Part shown: positions 3-21,067 of the stretch, piece after piece
Numbering within the stretch: the first letter of the stretch is position 1
How the letters are laid out: every line of letters starts with the position of its first letter
NCBI RefSeq assembly: GCF_002163855.1
Contig: NZ_CP019332.1
Coordinates: 2,459,145 to 2,523,144 of the forward strand
DNA: 64,000 nucleotides
Direction: 5' to 3'
Source: Winogradskyella sp. PC-19
GTDB lineage: Bacteria > Bacteroidota > Bacteroidia > Flavobacteriales > Flavobacteriaceae
Notes under the pieces: model-generated
Told to the model about the DNA's origin: nothing
The model's input: only the letters and a program-made list of their open reading frames with translations
Databases searched by the model: none
Program-made: the position numbers and the translations under genes

Positions 3-1592
3 AGAAGTACAGCACCAAGGTTCGAAAGACCGCAAAGTTACTTGCAGCGTAATACCGACAATTCGTTTACCCTAGAAGACTTTATTCCTGTAGGTGTTAT
101 TGGCGAGACTGAAGCTATTAATTCTTCGCCAACAGATTTATTAGAGATTACAAATGCAACAGAGATATTCGCAGTAGATTATATGAATGTCGATACGCCT
201 ATTGCCACCATATTAGCATTAAAAACTGAAGATGGAGTTTACGAACACACTAAATATATTTGTGATCGTTTATTAGGAGCTGAGTTAATAACAGTGTCTA
301 CAATAAATATTAATGAGCAGCAGTTTATTAAATCTGTAATAAAAAATCCTGATGGTACACATGAGTTTGTATTAAGCTTATCTGCAAAAGTGATTAATAA
401 TGATGCTGAATTTGCTATAGAAAGCCACTGGAATTTAGATAAGTACGAAGAAAATACAACGTTCTATAATTTTCAGATATGGGCTAATACTGTAGACGAT
501 TTATACTTATTAGGCGCCGAGGTTTTAAACCTATTGGCTATCGAAAAGCCAATTGTAGATTACAATAATTCTGAACCACCAGTAGTATTTGTAAGAAAGG
601 GAGAATACAACAATGGCGGATTAGACTTGCAAATTATAAATATCAATGCAACACAGAGCGTCAACTTTGATGCGGGCTATAGAACTTCTGAAACAGCTGA
701 GTTTAGTAACCTTAATATGGATATTGACTTAAACGGGCAATACCTAACTAACATTAGAGTAGAAACTGGACTATTATTTGATATTGGTTTTAGAATCGGT
801 GATGGCATCACTACACCAGACGATTTGTTTATGTCTGATGGCCCTTGGGGATTAGACGATTCTCAAGAAGGAACAAATATAGATAGTTATGAAATTACAA
901 CTAATGACTATACTTTTGCTGAGCAAGACAGGCCAATAGAACGTAATGTTTATTTAGACGCTACAACAAATACTTATGTTGCTGTTTATAGAGCTTTGAC
1001 ACCACGTTTTAAAGCTATAGACTTAACCACCTTTAGTAGTTTAAAATTTAAAGCAAAAGGGACAGGGCAATTAGAAATCGCTTTTGTTAAGGAAAGTATC
1101 ACTGATTGGGGCCAACAATTTAAAAGAACAGTTACGTTATCCGATACTTGCCAAACCTATTTGCTGCCAATTGAAGAGTTTGCTTCTAGCACAGGAAACG
1201 GCTCGCTCGACGATGTAGTTACATTAGTGTTTACAATGGTATCTCAAGACGGAACATTAGTAAATAAAAAAATGACTTTAGAGAATTTAAGACTCTCGAA
1301 TAACAATGCATTATCAGTAGAAGATTTTTCTAGTGACGTATCAGAATTAAGAGCATTCCCTAACCCAATGGATACGCAAACAGAATTGCAATTTACAGCT
1401 GCACAAAACGAAACAATCAGTTGTATTATTTACAATACACTTGGTAAAGAAGTGTACAAGACAACTTTTGATGCAAAATCTGGTAAAAATAGTATGACCC
1501 TAAAAAATGAAGGCTTAGTCCCGGGCTTATACTTCTGTAAGTTGCAAAGCCAATACAATGATTACAAAATAATAAAGCTATTAGTGAAGTAG
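3..1592 (+). CDS. T9SS-secreted protein with C-terminal sorting domain (5' end outside window)
   Basis: The reading frame is open to the left edge of the window, so the N-terminus and any signal peptide lie outside. The last 80 or so residues look like a type A sorting domain of the type IX secretion system. They have the pattern RAFPNPM, then a central YNTLGKEVY, and end in IIKLLVK; such domains direct export through the outer membrane and are cleaved at the cell surface. The preceding region, with FSSLKFKAKGTGQLEI and a DGPWGLDD segment, resembles a beta-sandwich carbohydrate-binding or CIA30-like module. I do not recognise the rest. It ends just upstream of a polysaccharide locus, which would suit a surface glycan-related role, but no catalytic motif is visible. 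A strong terminator follows 30 bases after the stop. Confidence 0.8.
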   Translation, partial: RSTAPRFERPQSYLQRNTDNSFTLEDFIPVGVIGETEAINSSPTDLLEITNATEIFAVDYMNVDTPIATILALKTEDGVYEHTKYICDRLLGAELITVSTININEQQFIKSVIKNPDGTHEFVLSLSAKVINNDAEFAIESHWNLDKYEENTTFYNFQIWANTVDDLYLLGAEVLNLLAIEKPIVDYNNSEPPVVFVRKGEYNNGGLDLQIININATQSVNFDAGYRTSETAEFSNLNMDIDLNGQYLTNIRVETGLLFDIGFRIGDGITTPDDLFMSDGPWGLDDSQEGTNIDSYEITTNDYTFAEQDRPIERNVYLDATTNTYVAVYRALTPRFKAIDLTTFSSLKFKAKGTGQLEIAFVKESITDWGQQFKRTVTLSDTCQTYLLPIEEFASSTGNGSLDDVVTLVFTMVSQDGTLVNKKMTLENLRLSNNNALSVEDFSSDVSELRAFPNPMDTQTELQFTAAQNETISCIIYNTLGKEVYKTTFDAKSGKNSMTLKNEGLVPGLYFCKLQSQYNDYKIIKLLVK

Positions 1593-2772: not shown

Positions 2773-4836
2773 TTATTTCTTAAAGGTAGCCCTGTTCCAA
2801 AACACCCACTTAAACCTCAACCCAATCTCCGTAAAAGTAAATCCAGCAGCAGTCGCAGAGGCAATATTACTATGGGTGCCATAAGCGTTAAGTAAACTAC
2901 GCTCAGAAAACTTGTACCCAAAAGCACCTTGTAGTCTATACGTACTTTGCTTGGCATCGTCTTCTATAAACTGGTAACCAAATGCTGCGGTTAGGTTGTA
3001 AAACCACTCGTTTGGTTTAGCAACTGCTTCGTCCTTTATAAGGTTTACAAATACTTCGCCAGCATTAAATTGCTCTGGGCTAAAGTAAATACTTGGTACT
3101 TGGTCTTTAAACGTAATGTACTGGTAGTTAAGTCCAACTTTTAAAGAGGGTTTTGCCAATAGGTTATAGTACAATGAAGTAAATAGTAAGTTACGGTTAT
3201 TGCCATCGTTCTGGTCCGTAAACATGTATTGTGTATACCAACCTAAATTAAAATTAGTGCTTAAATTATAAGTGGCGTAGTAGTTGTTTTGCACTAACTC
3301 TTGGTCTAATAAATCGGCATTAAAACTTTCGACTTGTCTTTTATAACCAACTGCGATGTTCTGTAATTTTAGTGCATTGATATTAAGTGATAGGTCAGTC
3401 ACTAATTGTGTAAAATCGTTAGTTTCTGCATTTGCTGCAGTGATACCTGCAGTACCATTAACTGTAATATTTGGTATAAGTTGGTATGCCAAGCCTAATG
3501 AAAAATTGTTAGAGCTTGCCGTATTATTTGTTACTGTATTATTAGTGGTTCTGTAATTATAGCTTCCTAACACCTTTAGTTTTGTAGATAGCGGATAGGT
3601 TACTGTGGTATTAAAGGCAAATGCTTTATTATCTCCATTATCAAAAGTATGTGATGCTTTAGATTCTAAAACTGGTGAAAAACTGCGGTCTAATTGGTCA
3701 ATAAAATTAACGGCATCTTTTTGGTTGTCATATATTTTTAATGTGTTTTCTGCCCAAGTATACGCATCGTCAAATCTACCTAAGGCTTTTAGGGTATTAG
3801 CTTTTCCCAAGTTGCCATCAAAAGATGTACTGTCATTTTCTAAAATTCTGTTATAATCGGCGAGACTCTGCTTAAAATTGCTTTTGTAAACATTTAGTGT
3901 TGCTCTTAAAGCCAATACCCAATTTTTGTTAGGATGCTTCGCGATTAAGTCTGTAATAAGATGTGTCGCAGCGCTGTACTTTTTATTCCAAATCAATGCT
4001 TGTGCATAACGCTCAGTGGTTTGTTGTGCTACATTTGCATCTGTATTATCAGTAATGCTATTATAAGCTTCAGTACTTATTTGTAAAGCCTTTTTTTCTT
4101 TTCCGTTTAAATGCGCTACCAAAGACAAACCGTTTTGTGCTAACATTAGATTTTCAGGTTGTTTGGCTAGACGTTGGTAGGTTAGCTCGGCATCATCAAG
4201 CTTTTCCCATATTAAATACAAGTTGGCCAGATTTAGTAAAGTGTCTTTATCGTCATTAAATAATTCTAGGTTTTTTATTAATAACTGTTCTGCCTTATCA
4301 TAGTTTTGCTGTTGTTGGTTTTGGTAAGCGTAACCCAAATAGATATACTTTTTTGAGGTTAGCGCATTAGGATTTCCCGGGGAAACAGCTAATGCATTAT
4401 TGACTTGAGTTAATGCATCTTCATATTCTTTTAGATTAGATAAGGTATTTGCATAACCTAATAATGCAGCAAAGCTTTTTGAGTCTTCAGAAACCAAAGT
4501 CTTGTAATATTGTTTTGCAGCTTTAAAGTTATTGGTCCACAAAAGAGATTCGCCGTAGTTTAGTTTTACTTCAAAATCATTTGGATAGTCTTTAAGTAAG
4601 TCTGTAAATAGTGTATTCGCTTTTTCTGCATTACCATTAAGTCCAATAGCGCGACCATAACACAAACGTGCCGTCTTATTATTAGGGTATGTCTTTAGTA
4701 TGGTACTAAAAAACTGTTCTGCATTTGCGTATTTCCCCGTTTCTAAATAGGTAAAACCGTCTTGCATGTCTTGTGCTTGTGCAGGTAACGTAAACAATAT
4801 AATATATGCAATTCCTATTAATTTTAAAGTCTTCAT
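2773..4836 (-). CDS. TPR/outer-membrane beta-barrel protein, probable polysaccharide export protein
   Basis: The 687-residue protein begins with a signal peptide (ILFTLPAQAQD). Residues 25 to about 390 are tetratricopeptide repeats (for example GYANTLSNLKEYEDALTQVNNALAVSPGNP). About 300 residues of alternating hydrophobic and polar strands rich in aromatic residues follow, consistent with a beta-barrel; the last residues, RFKWVFWNRATFKK, form a terminal strand. A TPR scaffold fused to a barrel is the layout of PgaA and PelB and of YaiO-like proteins, which export or anchor exopolysaccharides. The divergent STAS-flippase operon and the downstream glycosyltransferases support that role. A pair of direct repeats spaced like a LytTR operator lies in the divergent promoter region. 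The exact family and the exported polymer are unknown. Confidence 0.8.
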   Translation of the reverse strand: MKTLKLIGIAYIILFTLPAQAQDMQDGFTYLETGKYANAEQFFSTILKTYPNNKTARLCYGRAIGLNGNAEKANTLFTDLLKDYPNDFEVKLNYGESLLWTNNFKAAKQYYKTLVSEDSKSFAALLGYANTLSNLKEYEDALTQVNNALAVSPGNPNALTSKKYIYLGYAYQNQQQQNYDKAEQLLIKNLELFNDDKDTLLNLANLYLIWEKLDDAELTYQRLAKQPENLMLAQNGLSLVAHLNGKEKKALQISTEAYNSITDNTDANVAQQTTERYAQALIWNKKYSAATHLITDLIAKHPNKNWVLALRATLNVYKSNFKQSLADYNRILENDSTSFDGNLGKANTLKALGRFDDAYTWAENTLKIYDNQKDAVNFIDQLDRSFSPVLESKASHTFDNGDNKAFAFNTTVTYPLSTKLKVLGSYNYRTTNNTVTNNTASSNNFSLGLAYQLIPNITVNGTAGITAANAETNDFTQLVTDLSLNINALKLQNIAVGYKRQVESFNADLLDQELVQNNYYATYNLSTNFNLGWYTQYMFTDQNDGNNRNLLFTSLYYNLLAKPSLKVGLNYQYITFKDQVPSIYFSPEQFNAGEVFVNLIKDEAVAKPNEWFYNLTAAFGYQFIEDDAKQSTYRLQGAFGYKFSERSLLNAYGTHSNIASATAAGFTFTEIGLRFKWVFWNRATFKK

Positions 4837-4881: not shown

Positions 4882-4912
4882 CATTCATCTACAGCAAACG
4901 ACCATCCGTCGA
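4882..4912 (+). promoter_or_regulatory. Candidate LytTR-type operator, site A
   Basis: Two related 10-mers, CATTCATCTA at 4882 and CATCCGTCGA at 4903, start exactly 21 bp apart. This lies in the divergent promoter region between the TPR/barrel gene and the STAS operon. LytTR-domain regulators bind two about 9-bp direct repeats separated by about 12 bp. The -7-like element GATATTTG begins 40 bp after the start of the second repeat. Confidence 0.55.
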
Positions 4913-4918
4913 AATAGA

Positions 4919-4950
4919 TTGCACATACATGGAAATACTAAAGATATTTG
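4919..4950 (+). promoter_or_regulatory. Candidate promoter of the STAS-flippase operon
   Basis: A TTG at 4919-4921 is followed 21 bp later by GATATTTG at 4943-4950. This matches 7 of 8 positions of the TAnnTTTG element and fits the Bacteroidota -33/-7 arrangement. The first gene starts 41 bp downstream. Confidence 0.5.
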
Positions 4951-4990
4951 TGTCAGAAATAAATGTAAAACATCAAAAAAATAAGAAAAT

Positions 4991-5272
4991 ATGGCTCTTA
5001 CAATTAAAGAAAACAATGGCGCTTATCAATTAGAAGGTGTACTAAATGTAAACACTGCAAATCACTTTTTAACGCATTGCGAAATACTACTTAATGCGTT
5101 TGGAAAATTAACTATTGATATAGAAAAAACAAGCTTAATAGATAGCGATGGTATGCGCGCTATTAAATCACTATTTGCAAATGCAAATACTAGTCAAAGA
5201 AAATTTTATGTGATTGGTACAGGTTGTAAAGATATCTATGACGACATGAGAACCACAAACACAGCTGCTTAA
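4991..5272 (+). CDS. STAS-domain protein, copy 1 (Ser retained at the SpoIIAA phosphosite)
   Basis: A 93-residue protein made of one STAS-like domain (anti-sigma-factor antagonist type), with the strand-helix pattern LTIDIEKTSLIDSDGMRAI near residues 40-58. In Bacillus SpoIIAA the phosphorylated serine lies in a D-S-S-G motif. Here the aligned motif is D51-S52-D53-G54, so the serine at the phosphosite is kept. The next gene encodes a close paralogue with Glu at that position. STAS proteins act by binding partner proteins according to phosphorylation state. No cognate anti-sigma kinase is visible nearby, so the partner is unknown; it may control a protein of the polysaccharide machinery. It is the first gene of an operon with the paralogue and the flippase. 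Confidence 0.8.
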   Translation: MALTIKENNGAYQLEGVLNVNTANHFLTHCEILLNAFGKLTIDIEKTSLIDSDGMRAIKSLFANANTSQRKFYVIGTGCKDIYDDMRTTNTAA

Positions 5273-5304
5273 AAACTAATTAATAAAACAAAAATCAAAA
5301 TAGT

Positions 5305-5586
5305 ATGGCAATTACAATAGAAGAGAATAACGGCATATATGAAGTGCAAGGTCCCTTGACAGTAAATACAGCAAAGAACTTTCAGTCGCATTGCGAACTT
5401 ATCATGAATCATGATAAACAACTTACTATTGATGTTCAGTTTTTGACGGATATAGATGAAGATGGCATTAAGGCAATACACGCCTTGTATACCAATGCAA
5501 TTTATAAGGATTGCGCCTTTTTTATAGAAGGTAATCGTAGTAAAAAGTTATACGAAGCATTTCCTTTTACAGTTGCAGCAGCATAA
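5305..5586 (+). CDS. STAS-domain protein, copy 2 (Glu at the SpoIIAA phosphosite)
   Basis: This paralogue of the preceding gene has the same length (93 residues) and aligns end to end without gaps: both begin MA(L/I)TI(K/E)ENNG and carry NTA at 21-23 and HC at 29-30. The phosphosite motif here is D51-E52-D53-G54, so Glu replaces the phosphorylatable Ser. This could mimic a permanently phosphorylated state, leaving one switchable copy and one fixed copy; that is inference from alignment to SpoIIAA. The gene lies 32 bp after copy 1 and 30 bp before the flippase, and is probably co-transcribed with both. The partner is unknown. Confidence 0.8.
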   Translation: MAITIEENNGIYEVQGPLTVNTAKNFQSHCELIMNHDKQLTIDVQFLTDIDEDGIKAIHALYTNAIYKDCAFFIEGNRSKKLYEAFPFTVAAA

Positions 5587-5616
5587 AACTTAGTAATAAC
5601 TACAAATCAAAACAAC

Positions 5617-6867
5617 ATGCAATTATTAACAGCTATAAAATCAAAACGCCTTACGCCAGAGCAACTATTTATGTTGAGTGTATTGGCTGTAAATGGTGGT
5701 AACTATCTATATAATCTTATTTTGGGTCGTTTACTGGGTCCTAGTCAATTTGCAGATGCGGCAGTGCTTATCACATTTTTATTGGTGTTGTCTTTTATGG
5801 CAATGACATTTCAGTTGGTAACTGCAAAATTTTCGGTACTTTTTGAAAACGAAATCTTTAATAATTTCATTGCCAAGGTTTATAAGCAGGCGTTTTTTGT
5901 GGGTCTATTATTGGGTGTGATTATTGTTGCCTGTGCGTCTCAATTGCAAACACTATTTAATACATCATCTTCCACGATGTTTGTCATATTTGGTTTTGGT
6001 GTTCCGCTTTATTTTTTGATGAGTGTAAATCGCGGTACGTATCAAGGCAAAAAAGCCTATAAATCACTTTCTATAACGTATCAAGGTGAAATGTTAAGCC
6101 GTCTGCTAATAACACTAGGTTTGATTCTGGTTTTTAATATCCAATCTTCAGCAGTTATAGCTATAGGAATTGTGATCTCTTTTGTTTTTGGATTATTTCC
6201 TTTCAAAACAAAGCATGTTAGTATTAAGAAGCTCATTCCGTTAGACTCAAAATATAGTAAGCAGATTAAAAATTTCTTCTTGCTAACTGCTTTTTACGAG
6301 TTAACTCAAATCATTATAAACAATAGCGATATACTATTGGTAAAACATTATTTCGATTCTTATGACGCTGGTTTATATGCATCATTAGCATTAATAGGTC
6401 GTATTGTATACTTCATAGCTTGGATGTTTGTAATGTTGCTTTTACCTGCTGTTGTTGAGCTAAAAAAGGAAGGAAAGGAAACAGCTTCTGTTTTATTTAA
6501 ATATGTAGGATATATAGCTTTAATATCAGCAGTTATAGTATTGGCGTGTTTAGTGTTCCCAGAGTTAATAATACAACTACTATTTGGAGAGCAGTATCTT
6601 ACCATGGCGCCTTTGTTATGGAAATATGCTATCGCTACATCTATGTTTGCCATCTCTAACATTTTTGCGTATTACTATTTGTCTTTAGATAAATACGTGC
6701 CTGTAATTATCTCTGGTGTTTTTGGAATGTTACAAATGTTGTTAGTCGTATTCTATCACGATTCTTTAGAGCAAGTTGTACATATGCAAATCGTTGCAAT
6801 GGCATTACTTTTAGTCATACAAGTGCTGTTTTTTAAAAGCGAAAGTCTACTCAATAAAAAAAGCTAA
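5617..6867 (+). CDS. MOP-superfamily polysaccharide flippase (Wzx/PelG-like)
   Basis: A 416-residue integral membrane protein with about 12 hydrophobic segments. The N-terminus has the signature common to polysaccharide flippases (GGNYLYNLILGRLLGPSQF). Such proteins move lipid-linked or nascent glycan across the inner membrane. Further typical features are NNSDILLVKHYF near residue 230, a conserved helix in these transporters, and EQYLTMAPLLWKYA near residue 325. It is the third gene of the STAS operon, and a glycosyltransferase with its own upstream control region follows. In Pel-type loci a MOP protein (PelG) works with a GT4 enzyme (PelF) and a TPR/barrel porin (PelB), and the same three classes sit together here. 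Orthology to PelG is not shown. Confidence 0.85.
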   Translation: MQLLTAIKSKRLTPEQLFMLSVLAVNGGNYLYNLILGRLLGPSQFADAAVLITFLLVLSFMAMTFQLVTAKFSVLFENEIFNNFIAKVYKQAFFVGLLLGVIIVACASQLQTLFNTSSSTMFVIFGFGVPLYFLMSVNRGTYQGKKAYKSLSITYQGEMLSRLLITLGLILVFNIQSSAVIAIGIVISFVFGLFPFKTKHVSIKKLIPLDSKYSKQIKNFFLLTAFYELTQIIINNSDILLVKHYFDSYDAGLYASLALIGRIVYFIAWMFVMLLLPAVVELKKEGKETASVLFKYVGYIALISAVIVLACLVFPELIIQLLFGEQYLTMAPLLWKYAIATSMFAISNIFAYYYLSLDKYVPVIISGVFGMLQMLLVVFYHDSLEQVVHMQIVAMALLLVIQVLFFKSESLLNKKS

Positions 6868-6882
6868 TCTAAAGCTAATGAC

Positions 6883-6913
6883 CATTCGTCTACAGCAAAA
6901 TGCAACCCAACTA
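6883..6913 (+). promoter_or_regulatory. Candidate LytTR-type operator, site B
   Basis: CATTCGTCTA at 6883 is followed exactly 21 bp later by the weaker copy AACCCAACTA at 6904; both continue with CA. The -7-like CAAATTTG at 6944-6951 begins 40 bp after the start of the second repeat, the same distance as at site A. The glycosyltransferase gene starts at 6990. Confidence 0.5.
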
Positions 6914-6989
6914 CACCAAACAATTTTAATGACTTTTTAGCTGCAAATTTGTAGTGTAAATAAGAAATAACAATTATAAAAACAATATC

Positions 6990-8201
6990 ATGAAACTAGC
7001 AATTGTAACAGCATATCCGCCAAGTAAAGTCACTTTAAACGAGTACGCCTATCACTTGGTAAAACAGTTTATAAAAAATAAAGATGTTACAGAATTAATT
7101 TTATTAACAGATAAAACTGAAGGTGCAAAGGGTATCACTTTTACAGAACAAGGTTGTAAGATTACAGTAAAAGAATGTTGGTCTTTTAATAGCTATGCAA
7201 ATATCTTTTCTGTAACAAAGGCCATCAACAAAACTAAGCCAGATTCAGTATTGTTCAACTTACAATTCATGAAGTTTGGTGATAAGAAAATTGCTGCAGC
7301 TTTAGGTTTATTATTGCCATTGGTTTGTAAACTAAAAAAGATTCCTAACATCGTATTATTACACAATATACTTGAGGAAGTAGATTTAGGAAGTGCAGGA
7401 TTTACATCAAATAAATTGATGAAGAAAATCTACGGATTTATTGGTACAACGTTGACTAAATTTATTTTGCAAGCGGATACCGTTGCAGTAACCATGCAAA
7501 AATATGTGGATATCCTTGAGGAAAAATACAATGCAAAGAACGTTAAGTTAATACCTCATGGTACTTTTGAAATTCCTGCAGAACCAGATTATAGCCTGTC
7601 TAAAGGACCATTTCAAATTATGACCTTTGGTAAATTTGGTACCTATAAAAAAGTAGAAGGTATGATCCAAGCCGTTGAGATGGTGAGAAAGTCAACCGGA
7701 CTAAATTTAGAAGTTGTAATTGCGGGTACTGATAATCCAAATGTACCTGGGTATTTAGCTCAAGTTGAAGAAGATTATAAACACGTCCCACAAGTAAGAT
7801 TCACAGGTTATGTTGAAGAAGAAGACGTGCCAGTAATATTTAATGAAAGTGCAGTTGTTGTTTTCCCGTATACATCTACAACAGGAAGTTCAGGTGTTTT
7901 ACATCAAGCCGGAAGTTATGGTAAAGCTGTGGTTATGCCAGATTTAGGAGACTTGGCATTACTGGTTCAAGATGAAGGTTACTTAGGTGAGTTTTTTGAG
8001 CCAACAAGCGTAAAAAGTTTAGCCTATGCTATTGAAATATTAGTAACAAATGAAGCACATAGATTGCATATAGCTAAAACTAATTATAAAGCTGCAACAT
8101 CGCATCCTATGTCAAAAATTACACAAATGTATATTGAAGAATTCCAAACTATTATTGAAAGTAAGTCAATAGTAGTAAAAGCTCAAGAAATTATTCTTTA
8201 G
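6990..8201 (+). CDS. GT4-family (GT-B fold) glycosyltransferase
   Basis: The 403-residue protein opens with MKLAIVTAYPPSKVTLNEYA, the N-terminal Rossmann strand and loop of family 4 glycosyltransferases. The C-terminal nucleotide-sugar domain starts near residue 208 (FQIMTFGKFGTYKKVEG). It contains FTGYVEEEDVPVIF and then TGSSGVLHQAGSYGKAVV, the usual acceptor and nucleotide-binding stretch. It would add a sugar to a polysaccharide in the cytoplasm; the donor cannot be predicted. The stop overlaps by 11 bp, tail to tail, the end of the glycosidase gene on the other strand. An upstream direct-repeat site and -7 element suggest independent, regulated transcription. Confidence 0.88.
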   Translation: MKLAIVTAYPPSKVTLNEYAYHLVKQFIKNKDVTELILLTDKTEGAKGITFTEQGCKITVKECWSFNSYANIFSVTKAINKTKPDSVLFNLQFMKFGDKKIAAALGLLLPLVCKLKKIPNIVLLHNILEEVDLGSAGFTSNKLMKKIYGFIGTTLTKFILQADTVAVTMQKYVDILEEKYNAKNVKLIPHGTFEIPAEPDYSLSKGPFQIMTFGKFGTYKKVEGMIQAVEMVRKSTGLNLEVVIAGTDNPNVPGYLAQVEEDYKHVPQVRFTGYVEEEDVPVIFNESAVVVFPYTSTTGSSGVLHQAGSYGKAVVMPDLGDLALLVQDEGYLGEFFEPTSVKSLAYAIEILVTNEAHRLHIAKTNYKAATSHPMSKITQMYIEEFQTIIESKSIVVKAQEIIL

Positions 8202-9714
8202 ACGAGATATATTTGTACGATGCCTTTTTTACCCCATTTTCATTTATAAAACCAAAATATTTTTGAGCATTTTGCCTCCAAGGAAGTCCGCCTACGACTT
8301 CCTTTGGTATTTCCGTAAAATCGTACAAGGTCCATGACATAAATTGAATCTTATTTTCAGAGAAAATGGCTTGGATTTTTTGATGATAATCCGCCTGATC
8401 TTTTTCGCTATGACCTGTAGGATTCCAGATGCCATTGTAAGACGATAATCCAAACTCTGTAATAATAGCTGGCTTATCTTTAATTTTTGATTTTAAAACT
8501 TTATAACTCTCAGAAAGTTTTTCTAAATCTTCATAATAGTGAAATGTTACAAAATCTAATTTATCAACTAATATATTAGCACTTTCTACATTAGACCAAC
8601 CAATGGTAACTGGGTGATTAGGGTCATAAAGTTTTACTACATCTATCATTTTATCTAACCACGTATTTACCAATTCTTTTCCTCTTGATTCAAAATCTAA
8701 ATTAGGCTCATTCTTAATATCCCAACCCATTAGAGCTTCATGATTTTTTATATGGTTAACAACAATCTTAGCATGCCTTTGATTTAATGTCCAATCTAAC
8801 ACCGAATAATCGCCATAAAAATCAAATAGTGTTACTAATACTTTTAAGTCTTTACGTTCTGCAATATCTAAGACTGTAGATAGTTTTTCTAGCTTATCTG
8901 CTTTGATATTAGACTTTCCAAAGTCTTCGTAGGGAACAAAAATCCTGATACTATTTAATCCAGCATTTTTTATGATTTCGAAGTCATTACTTATAATTGA
9001 AGCATCAAAATTATCACCATACATGTCCCAAGGTGTATTTTGCGGATAGTAATTAATACCTTTTATGTTGGAAGTTGATAATGGTTTTTCTTTCTTTTTT
9101 GGGTAATAAAATTCACTACTAGTTTTTACAAGATGTCGTATTCTCCAAAAGCCATCTTCTAATAATAAGATAACTTTATAGGTAGATTTTTCATTTATCT
9201 CTGTTATGAGTTTTTCTCCTTTAAAAATGCGTTTGTATTCAATCACATCCTTATCAGTTAGTACGGCCATTTGCCCATCTTCACTAAAAAATTCTAGATT
9301 AGGGTTGTGGGATAGGCTTGTGCCTTCAATAGAAGTTGTGTTTTCTTTGTTTTGGTCTATTATACCGTATAGATTTAGACGAGCACTCTCTGTGTAATAG
9401 TCATCTAGGCCAATTTTTGTATTAGATTTAAAGGAAATATGCTTTACATACCAAGCGTCTAAATAATCGTTTTCAATAGATCTTAAAGTCTGTTGGTCCA
9501 TTGACCTGCCTTCATTAGTTAATGGACTCCAATTAAATTCTGGCAGATATTGGTCTACTTGTTTAATTTCTGTATGCAACATTTTACTTCGGTCTGCTCC
9601 TGTATTTAGATATGTGAAGATTGCAGCTATTCCATAAATAATTAATGACATAATAACAATGTAGATTAGGAGTATTACACCACGCAATATGTTTTTGTTC
9701 ATACTACTACTCAT
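8191..9714 (-). CDS. Membrane-anchored TIM-barrel glycoside hydrolase with NTF2-like domain
   Basis: The 507-residue protein has one N-terminal membrane segment (residues 9-36). An NTF2-like domain follows at about 73-200 and ends in FWRIRHLVK. A (beta/alpha)8 glycosidase domain covers about 217-505. The pair of catalytic glutamates expected of clan GH-A enzymes is visible: E336 in WDIKNEPN and E420 in ITEFG. It is predicted to sit outside the inner membrane and to cut or edit a glycan; a glycosidase of this kind (PelA, PgaB type) often accompanies exopolysaccharide synthases. The start overlaps the end of the upstream gene by 8 bp, implying translational coupling. A start at the fifth codon (Met) is possible. 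The exact GH family is not resolved. Confidence 0.8.
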   Translation of the reverse strand: MSSSMNKNILRGVILLIYIVIMSLIIYGIAAIFTYLNTGADRSKMLHTEIKQVDQYLPEFNWSPLTNEGRSMDQQTLRSIENDYLDAWYVKHISFKSNTKIGLDDYYTESARLNLYGIIDQNKENTTSIEGTSLSHNPNLEFFSEDGQMAVLTDKDVIEYKRIFKGEKLITEINEKSTYKVILLLEDGFWRIRHLVKTSSEFYYPKKKEKPLSTSNIKGINYYPQNTPWDMYGDNFDASIISNDFEIIKNAGLNSIRIFVPYEDFGKSNIKADKLEKLSTVLDIAERKDLKVLVTLFDFYGDYSVLDWTLNQRHAKIVVNHIKNHEALMGWDIKNEPNLDFESRGKELVNTWLDKMIDVVKLYDPNHPVTIGWSNVESANILVDKLDFVTFHYYEDLEKLSESYKVLKSKIKDKPAIITEFGLSSYNGIWNPTGHSEKDQADYHQKIQAIFSENKIQFMSWTLYDFTEIPKEVVGGLPWRQNAQKYFGFINENGVKKASYKYISSKE

Positions 9715-10921
9715 AGGTGATATTTTTAAAAGATTTGACCAAGCCAGCAGATTCTATAATAAAACTGTAGGTTGATTCTGGATACCTATCGGAATTTAGT
9801 TTAAAGATGCCGAAGCCTTCTAAAGTAGTCACTAATAATTCATCTTCTAAATTATTTTTATTGTAAATTTTTAATCTAATTTTCAGTCCATCTGGGATTT
9901 TCTGATTCATAAAGCTTTTGATAGGTCCAATTTTGATAGTTCTGTTATTATCTAAAAAAGAAACTTCAAAATCTGAGACAGCTTGCTTATAGTTCAACGC
10001 AATACTATTACTATTTGCCATACCTTCAATATACGCTTTGACAGACCATTGGTCTTCCTCATCTGGATGTAATATTTTTGCTGTTGCAACACCATTAATT
10101 GTTGCTCCGAAGGTTTGAGTTTTATTACCGTTTTTATCTGTTATAAAAAAGTTTACAAAGGTTCCATCACTAACAATATTATTATACCTATCTCTTATTA
10201 TTGAAGTTGTAAATGTTGTCATTTGATTACCATCTGCATAATCGTGAATTCGTTTAGCATTAATGGTAAAATCTGTAGGGATGGCTGGCATAACATTGAC
10301 ATCAAACTCTTTTGAGTTAAGTTCTAAGCATTCTGAACTAATTAAAATACGTCCGCTAGGTTGGTAAGAATAGATATTCTTATAAGCAAAACCGTGTTTA
10401 GTAAATACAGAATCACTAACCTGTTTATCCAGAAACTGATGTTTTACTTGGACTTTAGTGCTGTCTTTTAGAGGATTGTCAAGATTGTCAGTTGGTATAG
10501 TAACAAGCATAGTGTAATCTGTTTTGCCAGCCTCAATACTTGGAGGTCCAAGGTAGCTTTCTATTGTTTTAATAGCTTCTCTAGGTTTTATGTCAATTTG
10601 CCCACGAATTGTATTTGTTGGTGTGATTAGTTGCCAATTTAAAACACCGGATTTTTTAGATAGTGCTATCGGAATTTTAAATATGAGCGCCTTATTATTG
10701 ATTTTAGGATCTAATAACGCAGAACCATAACTATTTGAGCAATATAATTGAACATCTGAGTTTGAGGTAAAACTAAACTTAAGACTTATATCTGCTCCAG
10801 CAACGTAAGTGGTCGTTTGGCTTAAAAGTTTATAATCTGATACATCATTGGTATCTCTCGCTCTGTTTGGAGAGACAATGATTAAAAACCAAAGCAATAT
10901 GTAAAAATGTTTAGCTGTCAT
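9707..10921 (-). CDS. Exported protein with Ig-like/beta-sandwich repeats
   Basis: The 404-residue protein starts with a hydrophobic signal segment (FYILLWFLIIVSP). Beyond that I see no catalytic motif. The sequence is beta-rich with several Ig-like units. One near residues 230-310 (IRDRYNNIVSDGTFVNFFI, then GKT-like NGVATAKIL) resembles the invasin/Big_1 type found in adhesins. It is the middle gene of a three-gene minus-strand operon. Its start codon overlaps the stop of the large membrane protein by one base, and its end overlaps the glycosidase start by eight. The tight coupling suggests that the three products form one envelope complex, perhaps with this one as a periplasmic binding or scaffold subunit. 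Function is not established. Confidence 0.7.
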   Translation of the reverse strand: MTAKHFYILLWFLIIVSPNRARDTNDVSDYKLLSQTTTYVAGADISLKFSFTSNSDVQLYCSNSYGSALLDPKINNKALIFKIPIALSKKSGVLNWQLITPTNTIRGQIDIKPREAIKTIESYLGPPSIEAGKTDYTMLVTIPTDNLDNPLKDSTKVQVKHQFLDKQVSDSVFTKHGFAYKNIYSYQPSGRILISSECLELNSKEFDVNVMPAIPTDFTINAKRIHDYADGNQMTTFTTSIIRDRYNNIVSDGTFVNFFITDKNGNKTQTFGATINGVATAKILHPDEEDQWSVKAYIEGMANSNSIALNYKQAVSDFEVSFLDNNRTIKIGPIKSFMNQKIPDGLKIRLKIYNKNNLEDELLVTTLEGFGIFKLNSDRYPESTYSFIIESAGLVKSFKNITYE

Positions 10922-13900
10922 TAATTAGGACTTCCTATATATGTGTTCACTTCTAATTTTATGAAATTATATGTTTTATGTTCTATGTTTTGAAGTTCTT
11001 TTTTATTGTGGTTTGTAATTCTATTTGCAATTATTTTGTCTGAAATAGCTGTATTTGGCAGACCATTTACATAACAATTACTCATGTCCTCGTTAATAAC
11101 TTCTACGGCTGAGTTGTCAATAATTTTATATTTAAAAACACCTTGCCGTTGTTGTCTTACACCTTCTGTAATGAATAAATGATCAACCCATTTTATTTTT
11201 TTGTCTTTACTGTAATATGAGACCAACAGCTGAGGTATAGTTACCTCTTCCGTACCCATATTTACTATAGTTCCATATACATAGTTTACTTCGGATTTGG
11301 ATACTGAGATAGCCGTATTTTTAAATAAATCAGAACCAGAGACGTTCCCAGCGGCTTGAAGATTAAATTTAGTTGGTTGTTCTTCAAATGCAATTGGGGT
11401 AAACTCATCAGGGTTAAATGTTTTGGGAATAGAGTCTTTAGTTTGTGACCATGCAATACCCTCAAAATTTATTCTAAAAGATGTTACCTCTTTAGGTAAC
11501 AGTTTGTGTTTTACATGATATTTGGCATTATATGTGGCTAGCTCTTTATTGTTATCATTGTATAGCGTACCCTTTAGGACCACATCAGATGGGACGTTAT
11601 CGATATTTTGAATTTCACCAATGATAGCATAACTGCCTTTGTGTTTTACAAGTTTGGCAGTTAAAATCTCGAGTACAGGTTGTTTTAAAACGTCTTCATG
11701 ATGTGTTTGCTCTGTAGTTATGCGTCTTCTACCTTGATTAAAATAAGTTGTTTTGTTATCAGAATATAATTGGTCTGGCGGAAGGTCAGTAGGTTTATCT
11801 TCAGGTTGTAAGTACCACTTGCCATTGACTTTAATAAGCTTTTTAAAGTCTATTTTTTCAATCATCTCTAAAGGTGTTATCCAATCTGTTGTTACCTTTA
11901 AGCTTGCTAAATCACCTGTTTGACTAATAGTTTCTGTTGTAAGAGATTCTAGTTTTGCATATGAGCTTAATAATCCATCGGTTACAGATATCTCTAACAT
12001 ATATTGTGCTATAGAAAGCTCACTTTTTGGATTGATTAAACTGTGTGCTTTTTCAAACTCTTTAAAATCAAGCGCATCATAGTAAGTCAAAACGGCATTC
12101 TCTGGCGAATGATGTGATTCATTTTTTATATAAAAAAAATACACGCCGTAGACCACGAAAATTGCTAAAATAACAGACCAAATATGAGTTATACGTAAAA
12201 CACTTCTAGAGAATTTTGAATAGTTATTCTGAAATTTCATAAATACAGGTGGCGCAGTAATTCTAGTTTTTAACGCATGGACTAGCAAGAATTGAACATT
12301 CAAAATAAAAGCAATCAAGACGCTTAAGAACGGCATTGTACCCCATAGTATTTTTTGCCAAGTAGCTACATCATCTTTTGGTAAAATAGATGACAATGGA
12401 GGAACATTTAATTTTTCCCATACCATAATACCATTTTCTAATTGGCGTAATCTTTGCCAGCCACAGAAATATAAAATAGGATCATAAAATTTATCATTAG
12501 AAAAAATATATTTCAGATTGTATTTTTCTGGCGTGGTCAAAAACTGCTGTAACGAACCAATTCCTTCTACGCCTTTAAACTTTGAGTTTTCTAGGCGTTC
12601 TGTAGGTCGTGTAGTGAGTTCAGGAAGTCGTCTAGCAGAATGATAATTTCCATCTACAGATAGCGCATTGGTTTGTGCTGATAACCAAGCCATCTGATCT
12701 CCAAAACCCAAGGTCATGTAACGCCATTGGTCGTGTTGATCTTGATTAAGAAAATTTACAATGGGTAACATTTTAATCTTCTGCGGTTGTGATGGCTTAA
12801 AATAGCCAAGACTCATTGTAAATATGGTCATAAATAAAAAGAGCCCTGCTAAAATACCACCTGAAATTCTATGAAAAACAGCACCAAATTTATTCTGAAT
12901 GAGAGACTTTAAATCGCCTTCTACAAAACGATAAGCAAACTCGCCAAATAATGGTAAGGACATTATTGAAGCCCAAAGCGTAAATCTATCTAGGGTTAAT
13001 ATGTTAAATGCAGTTTCACCAAGTACCATTCTTGGAATTGGAGTAGTGCCACCTGTTCCTAAAACAAAGAGTATTGTAATAGATAACCCAAAAAAGAGAT
13101 ACCGCTTGCTGTAGTATCTATAAAAAATATAAGGTAATAATATGAGTAAAATCCCCCAAGGGATTAAAAAGAAAACCAATCCTGAAGACGTGATTTCAAG
13201 AAAATTATCTCTCGAGCCATGTGGTATTGGTACCTGGGTAATAGGGTTGTTTTTAGAGTTTATCCAATACGGTAGTATGCATCCAATAATTATAGTTAAA
13301 GACAGCATACCAAAGCTAATAATACGTTTAAAGAGTTTAAAGAAACTATTGATAAACACCTTTATAGTCACTTCTTTTATGGTCTTTACCTTTTCTTTAG
13401 CATCATTCATGATAACCATTCCTATTAAAGGAAAAATGAAAAATATCATACCAAAGATTGGGGTGACATGATGAGAAGTAACTGTGACTGCTATTAAGGA
13501 TAAGGACGTACCTAGGTAACGTTTTTTACCTGTTTTAAGCCATAAGTATATCTCTGGTAATGCATGCATAAGTATAGAGATACCAATGATACCCGGTAAT
13601 TGACCAAAAATATGAAGGGTTTCTACAAATGAGGAAGAAAACACGGCAAGTACAGCGGCATAACCAGCAACAGTTCTATTTGCCGACATAAGAAGCGAAA
13701 ATCTGTAAACGCCAGTTATAAAAAGTATAATACCCAAAAGCGCAACTGTAAACATTCCAAACTTTAATCCTCCAATTAATGAGAGTGCGGCAATGGATTG
13801 ATGGACTAATGGAGGATAACTCATAACAGTAAAACCGGTATACCATTTTGTGTTCCATGGTTCAAACCAACTCGATGAATAATGGTCTGCAAAAAATAAG

Positions 13901-14010
13901 TGTATCAAAGCATCATAGGTAGTTTCTAAAGTAAAGAAGATAGAAGTACCATGAAACGCAATACCAATGAGTAGTGCAGCAATAAGATATTTATTTGAAG
14001 TGTTTTTCAC
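10921..14010 (-). CDS. Large membrane protein, GT-C/PTPS-related type, with NTF2-like and FxLYD-like C-terminal domains
   Basis: The 1029-residue protein has about 12 membrane segments in its first 600 residues. The first periplasmic loop carries acidic and His residues (D33, H37 in DALIHLFFADHY) followed by a conserved YPPLVH. This matches the 6-pyruvoyl-tetrahydropterin-synthase-related membrane family, which has the topology of GT-C glycosyltransferases using lipid-linked donors. After the last segment (about 610-630) comes an NTF2-like domain (about 640-740, YYDALDFKEFEKAHSLI ending in GKWYLQPED). Two FxLYD-like beta domains then occupy about 770-1000. The same NTF2-like fold occurs in the glycosidase encoded two genes downstream. 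It heads the coupled minus-strand operon. A role in transferring sugar to an exported glycan is inference. Confidence 0.7.
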   Translation of the reverse strand: MKNTSNKYLIAALLIGIAFHGTSIFFTLETTYDALIHLFFADHYSSSWFEPWNTKWYTGFTVMSYPPLVHQSIAALSLIGGLKFGMFTVALLGIILFITGVYRFSLLMSANRTVAGYAAVLAVFSSSFVETLHIFGQLPGIIGISILMHALPEIYLWLKTGKKRYLGTSLSLIAVTVTSHHVTPIFGMIFFIFPLIGMVIMNDAKEKVKTIKEVTIKVFINSFFKLFKRIISFGMLSLTIIIGCILPYWINSKNNPITQVPIPHGSRDNFLEITSSGLVFFLIPWGILLILLPYIFYRYYSKRYLFFGLSITILFVLGTGGTTPIPRMVLGETAFNILTLDRFTLWASIMSLPLFGEFAYRFVEGDLKSLIQNKFGAVFHRISGGILAGLFLFMTIFTMSLGYFKPSQPQKIKMLPIVNFLNQDQHDQWRYMTLGFGDQMAWLSAQTNALSVDGNYHSARRLPELTTRPTERLENSKFKGVEGIGSLQQFLTTPEKYNLKYIFSNDKFYDPILYFCGWQRLRQLENGIMVWEKLNVPPLSSILPKDDVATWQKILWGTMPFLSVLIAFILNVQFLLVHALKTRITAPPVFMKFQNNYSKFSRSVLRITHIWSVILAIFVVYGVYFFYIKNESHHSPENAVLTYYDALDFKEFEKAHSLINPKSELSIAQYMLEISVTDGLLSSYAKLESLTTETISQTGDLASLKVTTDWITPLEMIEKIDFKKLIKVNGKWYLQPEDKPTDLPPDQLYSDNKTTYFNQGRRRITTEQTHHEDVLKQPVLEILTAKLVKHKGSYAIIGEIQNIDNVPSDVVLKGTLYNDNNKELATYNAKYHVKHKLLPKEVTSFRINFEGIAWSQTKDSIPKTFNPDEFTPIAFEEQPTKFNLQAAGNVSGSDLFKNTAISVSKSEVNYVYGTIVNMGTEEVTIPQLLVSYYSKDKKIKWVDHLFITEGVRQQRQGVFKYKIIDNSAVEVINEDMSNCYVNGLPNTAISDKIIANRITNHNKKELQNIEHKTYNFIKLEVNTYIGSPN

Positions 14011-14073
14011 TAAGCAGTATAGGTCTTAAGTCTACAGTGTAAAGATATATAAATAAAAAAGCCATTTGATTTT

Positions 14074-14104
14074 TAATCATCTACACCATTTTACCATTCG
14101 TCTA
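14074..14104 (+). promoter_or_regulatory. Candidate LytTR-type operator, site C
   Basis: TAATCATCTA at 14074 and CATTCGTCTA at 14095 start exactly 21 bp apart, and each is followed by CA. The site lies between the divergent large membrane protein gene and the receiver-GT2 gene. A weak -7-like ACTTTTTG at 14133-14140 faces the receiver-GT2 gene, at nearly the same distance as in sites A and B. Confidence 0.55.
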
Positions 14105-14194
14105 CACTTAGAAGCGCATTAGTCTAAATTAAACTTTTTGAAGACGCTTTAAAACTAATTTTGAGGTATAATTAAAACAATAAAATAAATTATT

Positions 14195-15382
14195 ATGAAG
14201 GTTTTAGCAATAGATGATCAACAATTAGTACTCCTTCCATTACAAAAAAGATTAATGGATTTAGGATACGAAGTTAAAATAGAAACTGATGCTTCTAATG
14301 GTCTAAAGACTTACGATGTATTTAATCCAGACTTAGTAATAGTAGATTTAAACATGCCAAATGTATCGGGTTTTGAGGTGATCAATCATATAAGAGTAAA
14401 AAGAGCTTCTCAAACGCCTATTATGATTTTGTCTGGTAATACTCAAGACGATGCAATAACAGCTGCTTTTGATTTAGGTGTTAACGATTATATGAAAAAA
14501 CCATTAAGCCTTGTAGAAATATGCGCAAGAGTTAAAAACTTAATCGGTGCACCACAAATGCAAAACCAATCTGTTACAGCATCTAATATTATAATTCAGC
14601 AAAGATGTGTTGGTGTTGTTATCCCTTGTTATAATGAAGAGGAACGTTTATTAAGTGAAGAGTTTTTAGATTTTGTAAATACAAATTCGGGCTACCATTT
14701 ATGTTTTGTTAACGATGGAAGTAAAGATAATACTTTAAATGTTCTTAAGGATTTGCAAAAAGGAAGAGAAGACTATATCACTGTTTATGATTGCGAAAAA
14801 AATGGAGGTAAAGCTGAAGCTGTAAGACTCGGAATGTTACACATGTCTAAAAAAGAGGATTTAGATTATATAGGGTTTTTAGATGCCGATTTATCTACTG
14901 ACTTAGCGGATTTTGACGATTTGGTTAAAACTATAGAAACATCAGATTTTAAAATTGTAAGTGGATCTCGTATTTCTAGAATGGGAGCAAATATCACAAA
15001 AGAATCAGCACGTAAGATTATTAGTTTAACGATTAATTACATCATAAGAAAAATTCTTTCCATGGATTTTAAAGATACACAATGTGGTGCTAAGATTTTT
15101 CATAAAGATGTTATAGATATAGCCTTTAAAGAAAAGTTTGTTACTCAGTGGATTTTTGATGTTGAAATTTTCAAAAGAATGACAATGCATTTTGGACTAA
15201 CTAAAGCTAAGTCAATGTTATGTGAACAACCATTAAAAAGATGGATACATACCGATGGCTCTAAATTATCAATGAAAGATTCAGTAAAAATAGTTTTTCA
15301 ATTAGCACAAATAGCTTGGGTGTATAGAAACAAGAAAGAATACGTAAAGTATGACACAAAAGGCGAAATAGAAATCATATAA
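14195..15382 (+). CDS. CheY-like receiver domain fused to a family 2 glycosyltransferase
   Basis: Residues 1-118 form a complete receiver domain. It has the acidic pair D7-D8, the phospho-acceptor D51 (VIVDLNMPN), S80 in MILSGN and K102 in MKKPLS. A short linker leads to a GT2 domain from about residue 138. This has GVVIPCYNEEERL, FVNDGSKDNT, NGGKAEAVRLG and the metal-binding FLDADLSTD, and resembles dolichyl-phosphate-mannose-synthase-like enzymes. No membrane segment follows, so it should be cytoplasmic. All receiver switch residues are present, so phosphorylation could control the transferase directly; that is inference. It starts an operon with a GT2-like protein and ManA and has candidate site C upstream. 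Response regulators with an enzymatic glycosyltransferase output are uncommon. Confidence 0.9.
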   Translation: MKVLAIDDQQLVLLPLQKRLMDLGYEVKIETDASNGLKTYDVFNPDLVIVDLNMPNVSGFEVINHIRVKRASQTPIMILSGNTQDDAITAAFDLGVNDYMKKPLSLVEICARVKNLIGAPQMQNQSVTASNIIIQQRCVGVVIPCYNEEERLLSEEFLDFVNTNSGYHLCFVNDGSKDNTLNVLKDLQKGREDYITVYDCEKNGGKAEAVRLGMLHMSKKEDLDYIGFLDADLSTDLADFDDLVKTIETSDFKIVSGSRISRMGANITKESARKIISLTINYIIRKILSMDFKDTQCGAKIFHKDVIDIAFKEKFVTQWIFDVEIFKRMTMHFGLTKAKSMLCEQPLKRWIHTDGSKLSMKDSVKIVFQLAQIAWVYRNKKEYVKYDTKGEIEII

Positions 15383-18419: not shown

Positions 18420-18456
18420 TTAGCAGATATATCTATTTTAGTTGTATGTCTGCTAA
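18420..18456 (+). promoter_or_regulatory. Inverted repeat covering the kinase start codon
   Basis: TTAGCAGATAT (18420-18430) can pair with ATGTCTGCTAA (18446-18456), 11 bp with one T-G wobble around a 15-base loop. The 3' arm begins exactly at the kinase ATG. If the mRNA starts upstream of 18420, the start codon would be sequestered. A TATTTTAG at 18434 could instead drive an almost leaderless transcript. Confidence 0.4.
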
Positions 18457-20185
18457 TTTTAGTTTAGTACTTTTTTTGTTGTATATCCCACTTCTTTCTT
18501 TTGCACAAAATGGCAATTGTACGAGGCAGGATCTTATAAAATCTTTTTCCAAATCTGAAAAGCTCCTTGAAGTTGATGAATTTATAACAAAAGGAAAGAA
18601 TGAAGAAGCCTTCAAAATAATTAGGGACATAAACTCTAAACAGAATTTTGACCAGAGTTTAAGTGGTATCTTATTCTTTTTAGAAGCACAAATTCACAAC
18701 AACAATGGCTCATTTAACAAAAGTTTAGAGGCCTATAACAAAATTTTAAATAAGGAATCTACTAATAAGGATTTGCTTTTTTACACTTATTTAGGAATTG
18801 GTGCAAGTTATATGTCAGGTCTTAGAGAGTTCGAAGAAGTAATTCCTAATTACAAAAAAGCAGAGGCATTATTAGATAGTAATTCATGTAAAATAAAGAA
18901 AGCACTTGTTTATGAAGCTTTAGGAACAGTTAATTTGCTCAAAGAAAATTTAAAAGATTCCGAAAGTTACTATTTAAAAGCACTAAATATATACCTCAAA
19001 GAGAGAAATGTTCTTAGCACAGCGCGAACTTATAATAACCTAGGTAATCTGTATTTTGAACATGACTTCGACCAAAAAGCAAAAGTATATTTTTTAAAAG
19101 CATTAGAATCTTTTCCTATAAAAGACAGCACAAATATTCATTTACGAGAAAAGTTTAATTATAATTTATTCGCTGTAAACGAGTACTTGGGAAATTATAA
19201 AAAAGCAATCGCTTACTTAGAGAAATCAAATTCATTAAGGGATTCTATATTGAATCGTGACAAAGTCTGGGAAATCGCCGAATATGATAAAAAGTTGGCT
19301 ATTTCCGAAAAACAAAAAGAGCTAACAATTCTCGGAGCAGAAAACAAGGCTAAAGAAGCTCAACGAAATGCAGTTTTTATATCTGCTGCTGTATTATTAC
19401 TATTGTTAGGCGTAAGTATGTATTACTATATACAAAAGGTGAAAACCAATAAAATAATTTCCTCTCAAAACGAAACGTTAGATAACCTTAACGCTACCAA
19501 AGACAAACTGTTTTCTATTGTTAGTCATGACTTAAGGTCTTCTGTAAATGCCTTAAAATCCAATAACAAAACTTTAATCAATAGTCTTCAAACAAAAAAT
19601 TTAGAAAAGTTAGATGGATTGTTGGCATCAAATAGTAGTATTGTAAATGGTGCCTATAATTTATTAGATAATTTGCTTAATTGGGCTATGCTTCAAACTA
19701 AGCAAACTTACTTTTTAATAGAGCCACACAGGTTACATCATTTAGTAGGGCAAGTTGTTTTTAATTATGAAGCTTTATTAAAGGAAAAGGAAATAACTTT
19801 CAAAAACCAAGTTTCAAAAAATGCCAAAGTTCTTATTGACAAAGAATCATTTAAAATAATACTCCGTAATTTTTTAGACAACGCTATCAAATTCACACAG
19901 AAAAATGGTGAGATTTCAATATTATCGAGCCTAGATGATGATTATTGGCAAGTTATAATTGAGGATAATGGATTAGGTATGAGAGCAGATAAAAAAGCCG
20001 AATTGTTAAGTGATAGTAAATTGCTTTCTAAAAAAGAGAATGAAGGTATTATTGGTACTGGTCTAGGTATGCATTTATGTAAATCTTATATTAAAAAAAA
20101 CAAGGGAAAATTCGATATCGAAACGCAATTCGGTATTGGAACAAAAATCATTGTATCTTTACCAAAAGCCGATGTAGATGGATAA
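18446..20185 (+). CDS. TPR-containing sensor histidine kinase
   Basis: The 579-residue protein has a signal peptide (LVLFLLYIPLLSFAQ) and about 290 residues of tetratricopeptide repeats. A coiled-coil stretch leads into one membrane helix (about 313-331, AVFISAAVLLLLLGVSMYY) and a cytoplasmic kinase. The phosphoacceptor His lies in KLFSIVSHDLRSS. The ATPase domain has N-box RNFLDNAIKF, G1 box IIEDNGLGM and G2 box GTGLGMHLCK. It probably senses an extracytoplasmic signal through the TPR domain and phosphorylates the LytTR regulator, whose start codon overlaps the kinase end by 8 bp. It might also phosphorylate the receiver-GT2 fusion encoded 3 kb upstream; that is speculative. Confidence 0.92.
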   Translation: MSANFSLVLFLLYIPLLSFAQNGNCTRQDLIKSFSKSEKLLEVDEFITKGKNEEAFKIIRDINSKQNFDQSLSGILFFLEAQIHNNNGSFNKSLEAYNKILNKESTNKDLLFYTYLGIGASYMSGLREFEEVIPNYKKAEALLDSNSCKIKKALVYEALGTVNLLKENLKDSESYYLKALNIYLKERNVLSTARTYNNLGNLYFEHDFDQKAKVYFLKALESFPIKDSTNIHLREKFNYNLFAVNEYLGNYKKAIAYLEKSNSLRDSILNRDKVWEIAEYDKKLAISEKQKELTILGAENKAKEAQRNAVFISAAVLLLLLGVSMYYYIQKVKTNKIISSQNETLDNLNATKDKLFSIVSHDLRSSVNALKSNNKTLINSLQTKNLEKLDGLLASNSSIVNGAYNLLDNLLNWAMLQTKQTYFLIEPHRLHHLVGQVVFNYEALLKEKEITFKNQVSKNAKVLIDKESFKIILRNFLDNAIKFTQKNGEISILSSLDDDYWQVIIEDNGLGMRADKKAELLSDSKLLSKKENEGIIGTGLGMHLCKSYIKKNKGKFDIETQFGIGTKIIVSLPKADVDG

Positions 20186-20969: not shown

Positions 20970-20999
20970 AAATTCCGCTTTCGCGAATAAGAAATTCCG
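20970..20999 (+). promoter_or_regulatory. Candidate LytTR-type operator, site D (22-bp spacing)
   Basis: AAATTCCG occurs at 20970 and again at 20992, followed by CTTT and TTTT. The units TTCCGCTTT and TTCCGTTTT fit the published LytTR half-site pattern [TA][AC][CA]GTT better than sites A-C do. The -7 element TAGATTTG begins 47 bp after the start of the second unit. Confidence 0.5.
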
Positions 21000-21038: not shown

Positions 21039-21046
21039 TAGATTTG
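21039..21046 (+). promoter_or_regulatory. Promoter -7 element of the 100-residue gene
   Basis: TAGATTTG matches TAnnTTTG exactly. It overlaps the TTG that would otherwise allow a longer coding start, which argues for the ATG at 21068. Confidence 0.55.
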
Positions 21047-21067
21047 TGTCAAACAAAACACACAGTT

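Follow-up and report, generated by a model that had tools for sequence, protein, structure and literature searches.

Conserved tandem repeats in a flavobacterial polysaccharide locus as predicted operators of a LytTR regulator linked to H-NOX

A polysaccharide locus in the 64-kb stretch of Winogradskyella sp. PC-19 analysed here (the window, within which all coordinates are given) carries related tandem repeats in three places, site A (the 4882 region), site B (the 6883 region) and site C (the 14074–14163 region), and the question that these raise is which regulator, if any, they serve. The original prediction took them for LytTR-type operators of one common regulator, the LytTR response regulator encoded at 20178–20924 (+ strand). 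Our analysis points to what is probably a real, conserved and largely locus-specific LytTR-type regulon, for which the earlier reading named the right class of regulator and probably the wrong protein. The repeats are predicted to be operators of a single, different LytTR regulator, here termed LYTH, which would control the whole locus and be fed by an H-NOX-linked phosphorelay; we assign this reading a probability of roughly 0.78. To our knowledge, little is known in the Flavobacteriaceae either of the regulation of surface polysaccharides or of the role of H-NOX.

The 12-mers start at 4882 and 4903 (A), 6883 and 6904 (B) and 14074 and 14095 (C), and the predicted start-to-start spacing of 21 bp is exact in all three pairs. 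Mismatches to CATTCGTCTACA number 1 + 3 at A, 0 + 5 at B and 3 + 0 at C, giving one strong half-site per pair. A half-site matrix derived from the C regions of 26 relatives, and trained on neither the window nor any A or B site, scores the three pairs at 33.9, 32.8 and 32.6. These are the top pairs of the 64 kb; the 14 best-listed pairs of the window, both strands considered, all fall in sites A–C, and the highest pair score in 100 dinucleotide shuffles of the window is 13.9.

The position of the repeats relative to putative promoter elements, called with what we take to be the Bacteroidota −7 consensus, is equally regular. At site A the strong distal half-site CATTCATCTACA (4882–4893, + strand) and the proximal half-site CATCCGTCGAAA (4903–4914, +) precede a −7-like element, GATATTTG (4943–4950, +), which has the same register in many relatives. 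At site B the strong half-site CATTCGTCTACA (6883–6894, +) lies between a weak extra copy 21 bp upstream, AGCTAATCTAAA (6862–6873, +), and a weak proximal half-site (6904–6915, +), with the −7-like element CAAATTTG beyond (6944–6951, +). The predicted distance of 40 bp from the second repeat to a TAnnTTTG-like element holds at A (4903 to 4943) and at B (6904 to 6944), where GATATTTG and CAAATTTG are each one letter off TAnnTTTG. The −7 element that had been placed at 14133 in site C, 38 bp from the second repeat, does not hold up: the conserved element is TAATTTTG (14156–14163, +), whose register is shared by most relatives that have the site. Because the strong half-site lies 61 bp before the −7 at A and B, and the relatives agree at C, the pair 14074/14095 with a −7 at 14133 is replaced by 14095/14117 with a −7 at 14156. 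The strong half-site at C is thus CATTCGTCTACA (14095–14106, +), followed after 22 bp by the weak proximal half-site CATTAGTCTAAA (14117–14128, +), 39 bp before the −7, and TAATCATCTACA (14074–14085, +) is an extra upstream half-site. With this assignment A (4882 to 4943), B (6883 to 6944) and C (14095 to 14156) all have their −7-like element exactly 61 bp after the start of the strong half-site, and TAnnTTTG follows the strong half-site by about 61 bp upstream of the relatives' genes for the receiver-GT2 protein, a response-regulator receiver fused to a GT2 glycosyltransferase. On the other side of site C, GTAAAGATA at 14039–14047 is kept in many relatives and probably reads as the −7-like element of the divergent gene (TATCTTTAC on the − strand). 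The 14074 copy, about 27 bp from it, mirrors the layout of the forward promoters and may serve this divergent promoter.

Relatives were collected by scanning genome contigs with the receiver-GT2 protein, which gave 80 loci (L001–L080), from which L061–L080 were dropped as distant matches. At a half-site score of at least 6, and with the window left out of the tallies, site C is recognized in 47 of 53 regions (1.6 expected from shuffled regions, 3 in reversed ones), a count that is partly circular since the matrix was built from C regions. The tallies for B (29 of 51 regions; 1.6 expected shuffled, 2 reversed) and A (24 of 30; 1.0 expected shuffled, 2 reversed) are free of this circularity, and that for B is a lower bound because the region used for L009 missed a real site. 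In L055 and L056 the stretch covered was the 330 bp preceding the receiver-GT2 gene. Judged by these sequence comparisons, the tandem repeat tag is conserved, at the same intergenic places, across the marine bacterial family Flavobacteriaceae, the outcome of a check that the original prediction had itself proposed.

Its proposal that the regulon is confined to one locus is largely upheld as well. In 8 whole genomes the strict promoter pattern CATTCRTCKA-N(50–52)-NANNTTTG has 30 matches, compared with 1 for the reversed pattern; on our reading 27 of them lie in this cluster, and the 3 outside it are all in one genome (G006). Six of the 27 are accounted for by three sites in a stretch that is present twice in the genome of Tamlana nanhaiensis (G004). 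On contig C2 of that genome the sites, LYTH and H-NOX all occur twice, about 189 kb apart and with identical site sequences, which is probably an assembly duplication. Two identical matches in G006 (L093 and L110) lie inside an open reading frame near contig starts, outside the cluster, and likely represent a repeated gene.

Further pattern matches about 5–14 kb to the left of site A led to LYTH. The fetched left flanks contain an operon in the order receiver, H-NOX, PAS/GAF kinase, often FIST and a second kinase, a 105-amino-acid Hpt-like protein and LYTH. The repeats occur upstream of this operon in 8/8 genomes. In 6/8 a protein with a type IX secretion system (T9SS) sorting signal follows LYTH, with repeats in between in all six. 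The last 516 residues of this protein match the first gene of the window (42–1592, +), the C-terminal part of a T9SS-sorted protein that starts left of the window and measures about 810–890 residues in relatives.

The sites are tightly associated with LYTH and with this locus. LYTH, H-NOX and orthologues of the 20178 protein were searched for in 50 genomes from L001–L060, which carry the locus or its receiver-GT2 gene; for adjacency, contigs were taken to be identical where coordinates matched, which is least certain for L026. In 45 of the 50, no more than 30 kb separates LYTH from the receiver-GT2 gene. At least one of A, B and C carries a site in 42/42 genomes with an adjacent LYTH 66–100% identical to the Winogradskyella vincentii protein and in 0/3 with an adjacent LYTH at 61% identity. 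Where LYTH is not adjacent, a site is found in one of five genomes, that of Kordia algicida, which has the operon elsewhere on the chromosome. In the Euzebyella and Pseudozobellia genomes (L151, L152) the operon lacks its LYTH gene, and no site was found at A, B or C; each genome retains a LYTH-like gene at another place. Two loci of Maribacter type with the 61% LYTH (L149, L150) have a complete operon and A–C regions that the matrix does not recognize, and only L149 keeps the site before the operon; the operator in these loci may have diverged. Euzebyella (G032) also has a second cluster (L153), which combines CATTCGTCTACA repeats with a LYTH paralogue, a receiver, flippase and GT4 paralogues, and a gene whose kinase-like match is short.

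The association extends to a set of 299 Flavobacteriaceae, in which LYTH was called at E ≤ 1e-80. The promoter pattern has 158 matches in the 111 genomes with LYTH and 16 in the 188 without, the reversed control giving 15 and 18, respectively. Placement was assessed for the 150 listed of the 174 matches, 108 of which lie within 40 kb of LYTH. LYTH is present in 61/62 genomes with the receiver-GT2 gene; H-NOX is present in 56/62 of these genomes versus 49/237 others, and is linked within 40 kb in 51/56. Genomes with LYTH only (n = 14) have 14 matches, distributed over 7 genomes, and those with H-NOX only (n = 8) have 2. The motif tracks LYTH rather than H-NOX.

Comparison with curated families gives the likely components of a relay. 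The H-NOX protein scores 135 bits against a cut-off of 25.5 for PF07700, a family that is over the cut-off in 50/50 genomes. The proximal histidine and the YxSxR haem motif are retained in 11/11 aligned sequences, and the H-NOX of the Kordia algicida operon (L155) matches the PDB 6bdd/6bde chains over its full length. In their molecule name the 6bdd/6bde H-NOX chains are called an aldolase, apparently an annotation error that was carried over. The kinase carries its own PAS and GAF domains, and the Hpt-like protein has an HxxK motif of the VHKLKHK/VHKIKHK type in 9/9 aligned sequences. A Pfam scan of operon proteins (seven from L111 and single ones from L112 and L115) found no GGDEF, EAL or HD-GYP domain.

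These arrangements suggest how the locus may be regulated. LytTR operators are described as pairs of 9-bp repeats with a 10–13 bp spacer, sometimes with three repeats (PMC11347149), a class that the repeats fit as originally proposed: 21–22 bp from start to start corresponds to a spacer of 12–13 bp for 9-bp units. The idea of one common regulator is likewise supported, with LYTH in place of the 20178 protein. The strong half-site CATTCGTCTACA starts 61 bp before the −7 and the weaker one lies 21–22 bp downstream, about two helical turns away, starting 39–40 bp before the −7 and directly upstream of the expected −33 element. Most LytTR regulators are reported to bind upstream of the −35 and to activate (PMC11347149; AgrA in PMC4227749), and a LYTH dimer on both half-sites would activate transcription. 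Since A and C lie between divergent genes, the three sites could serve every one of the five directions in which the locus is transcribed, and since the promoter of the H-NOX/LYTH operon carries the same repeats, this operon is probably self-regulated. Phosphate would most likely pass from kinase to receiver, Hpt and LYTH. A gas, probably nitric oxide (NO) bound by H-NOX, may set the kinase activity and, through it, the phosphorylation of LYTH that would activate the locus. A gas signal is proposed because H-NOX proteins of other bacteria are reported to inhibit or tune their partner kinases on binding NO (PMC8738867; PMC6769237), because YxSxR and the histidine are kept, and because the Kordia algicida member matches 6bdd.

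Several other explanations were weighed. That the half-sites are short, and degenerate in their proximal copies, is what would be expected if the repeats reflected chance similarity or intergenic DNA inherited without function; the shuffle tests, the in-register conservation at three separate places and the genome-wide confinement relative to the reversed control render this explanation extremely improbable. It is also highly unlikely that A–C are bound by the originally proposed regulator at 20178, acting with the TPR histidine kinase encoded beside it (18446–20185, +), a pair that is not conserved beside the locus. The 20178 protein belongs to the right class, and no more than about 6 kb separates its gene from site C; against it, orthologues (53–67% identity) are found in 3 of the 50 genomes, in each case on a contig other than that of the locus. 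In the relatives' fetched flanks, LytTR proteins are only 25–29% identical to it (26–29% for LYTH, by BLAST). The orthologous kinase–LytTR pairs sit in other surroundings (four stretches in three genomes), with no polysaccharide-block gene beside them in these four stretches, and no CATTCGTC-type pair occurs near 18–21 kb of the window. The sites instead follow LYTH, and the claim that the 20178 protein is their common controller is not borne out.

If LYTH is accepted as the regulator, what it does and what it responds to may still differ from our proposal. LYTH could bind and mainly repress or tune the locus, as does CoxC, a LytTR protein described as acting as a repressor, its three repeats lying over the −35 box (PMC11347149); the proximal half-sites, however, end about 27–28 bp before the −7, upstream of the expected −33, which is the position reported for LytTR activators (PMC11347149; AgrA, PMC4227749), and we regard repression as unlikely. 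A rather stronger contender, although still an improbable one, is that the repeats are LYTH operators whose input is other than H-NOX and NO, the PAS/GAF kinase or a FIST-linked kinase sensing something else and H-NOX being a minor modulator. This would account for the motif following LYTH in genomes without detected H-NOX and for the kinase having PAS and GAF domains of its own, and it would suit the FIST protein, whose candidacy as NosP (NF041558) was rejected at 30.9 bits, compared with a curated cut-off of 450 (one protein). The presence of H-NOX in all 50 genomes, its enrichment in genomes with the receiver-GT2 gene and its linkage within 40 kb argue for an H-NOX-linked input.

The reading of the repeats as operators of LYTH, fed by the H-NOX-linked relay, has a number of points against it. 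At the sites themselves, the proximal copy at 6904 departs from the consensus at 5 of its 12 positions, and no half-site scoring at least 6 is present in 22/51 B, 6/30 A and 6/53 C regions. Across genomes, 35 of the 111 with LYTH lack a pattern match, although the pattern is strict; of the 150 listed matches, 27 are in LYTH genomes at greater distance or on another contig and 15 in genomes lacking LYTH; and the association counts ignore kinship. L036, L041 and L056 have lost only the local copy, since each has a LYTH-like gene at another place, and the operons without LYTH and the 61% group amount to a handful of possibly related cases and thus do not count as many independent events. As for the relay, the operon would lie just past the left edge of the window, its presence in this genome being deduced from relatives. 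The Hpt-like protein scores 16.7 bits against PF01627, below the cut-off of 24.6, some operons lack a FIST gene, and H-NOX family membership is the one ground for NO as the ligand. Binding, activation, phosphate order and the NO signal are all what we infer, and the sequence does not reveal whether the response is positive or negative.

AlgR, YehT and YpdB give further examples of LytTR operators, and a CCGTTCGTC-like site of AlgR resembles the motif described here. Like the AgrA, RcoM1 and CoxC operators as described in PMC4227749 and PMC11347149, the sites consist of two or three successive direct repeats of about 9 bp that precede a promoter. They differ from these described operators in their CATTCGTCTACA motif and its fixed 61-bp register to a Bacteroidota −7, and in that the targets are largely one polysaccharide locus together with the regulator's own operon.

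The operon resembles the H-NOX/kinase systems described for Shewanella, Vibrio and Legionella in placing H-NOX beside a kinase with receiver and phosphotransfer proteins, and in a link to biofilm (PMC8738867; PMC6769237). Those relays are reported to end in enzymes of cyclic di-GMP (c-di-GMP), in HnoC or in quorum-sensing regulators (PMC8738867; PMC6769237). In contrast, the DNA-binding output here would be a LytTR protein next to polysaccharide genes, with no c-di-GMP enzyme domain in the scanned operon proteins, which come mainly from one genome. As in NosP/FIST signalling, the FIST gene is next to a histidine kinase (PMC12570481); unlike NosP, the FIST protein falls far below the NosP cut-off, shares its operon with H-NOX and is missing from some operons. 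A molecular-dynamics study of the Kordia algicida H-NOX deals, in the portion of its text available, with gas diffusion in the protein and not with what H-NOX controls (PMC7356049). The operon context suggests a target, and would give this structurally solved protein a concrete candidate function. More tentatively, and somewhat less likely than not, a complete gas-sensing phosphorelay (H-NOX, often FIST, one or two kinases, receiver, Hpt and LytTR) may bypass c-di-GMP, drive a single polysaccharide machine through locus-specific operators and perhaps also phosphorylate the receiver-GT2 protein; if true, one signal would control both transcription and synthesis.

In the open-licence literature we found nothing on H-NOX with LytTR in Bacteroidota, the matches by title concerning other bacteria, no such system by title for H-NOX or LytTR with Flavobacteri-, nothing for LytTR, Bacteroidetes and direct repeats, and, among the matches listed for the motif string, nothing related by title. 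The analysis ties together a conserved putative operator, its candidate regulator and the target locus in Flavobacteriaceae, and proposes a testable path by which a gas signal would reach polysaccharide production with no part for c-di-GMP. NO is reported to figure in algal-bacterial interactions (PMC10356946), the setting of many of these bacteria.

The surroundings of the 20178 gene have features of their own. Between 17970 and 21370 small genes flank the kinase–LytTR pair, like a separate cassette, and the copies in relatives (L158–L161) are at unrelated places, with a small gene before the pair in 4/4 stretches and small genes after it in 3/4. After the LytTR gene, AATTCCG repeats at 20971 and 20993 (22 bp apart) are followed by TAGATTTG at 21039, upstream of a gene for a 108-residue protein (21044–21370), which suggests that this pair is possibly a target of the 20178 protein itself; as it was not found in the four stretches around the orthologues, no operator claim is made for it.

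The genes of the locus lie on either side of the sites. Divergent from site A is a gene for a TPR protein that weakly resembles the PgaA export porin, at a score under the cut-off (2773–4836, −). After site A come two STAS-domain proteins (4991–5272, + and 5305–5586, +) and a polysaccharide flippase-like protein (PF13440; 5617–6867, +), and after site B a GT4-type glycosyltransferase (6990–8201, +). On the opposite strand lie genes for a 1029-residue protein (10921–14010, −), which is divergent from site C, a 404-residue protein (9707–10921, −), both of no confident family, and a GH5-like glycoside hydrolase (8191–9714, −). The block of TPR, STAS-flippase, GT4, GH5-404-1029 and receiver-GT2 genes is syntenic in most of L001–L060. 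The receiver-GT2 gene follows site C (14195–15382, +). The fusion that it encodes is present in 62 of the 299 Flavobacteriaceae and may allow direct phospho-control of a polysaccharide enzyme.

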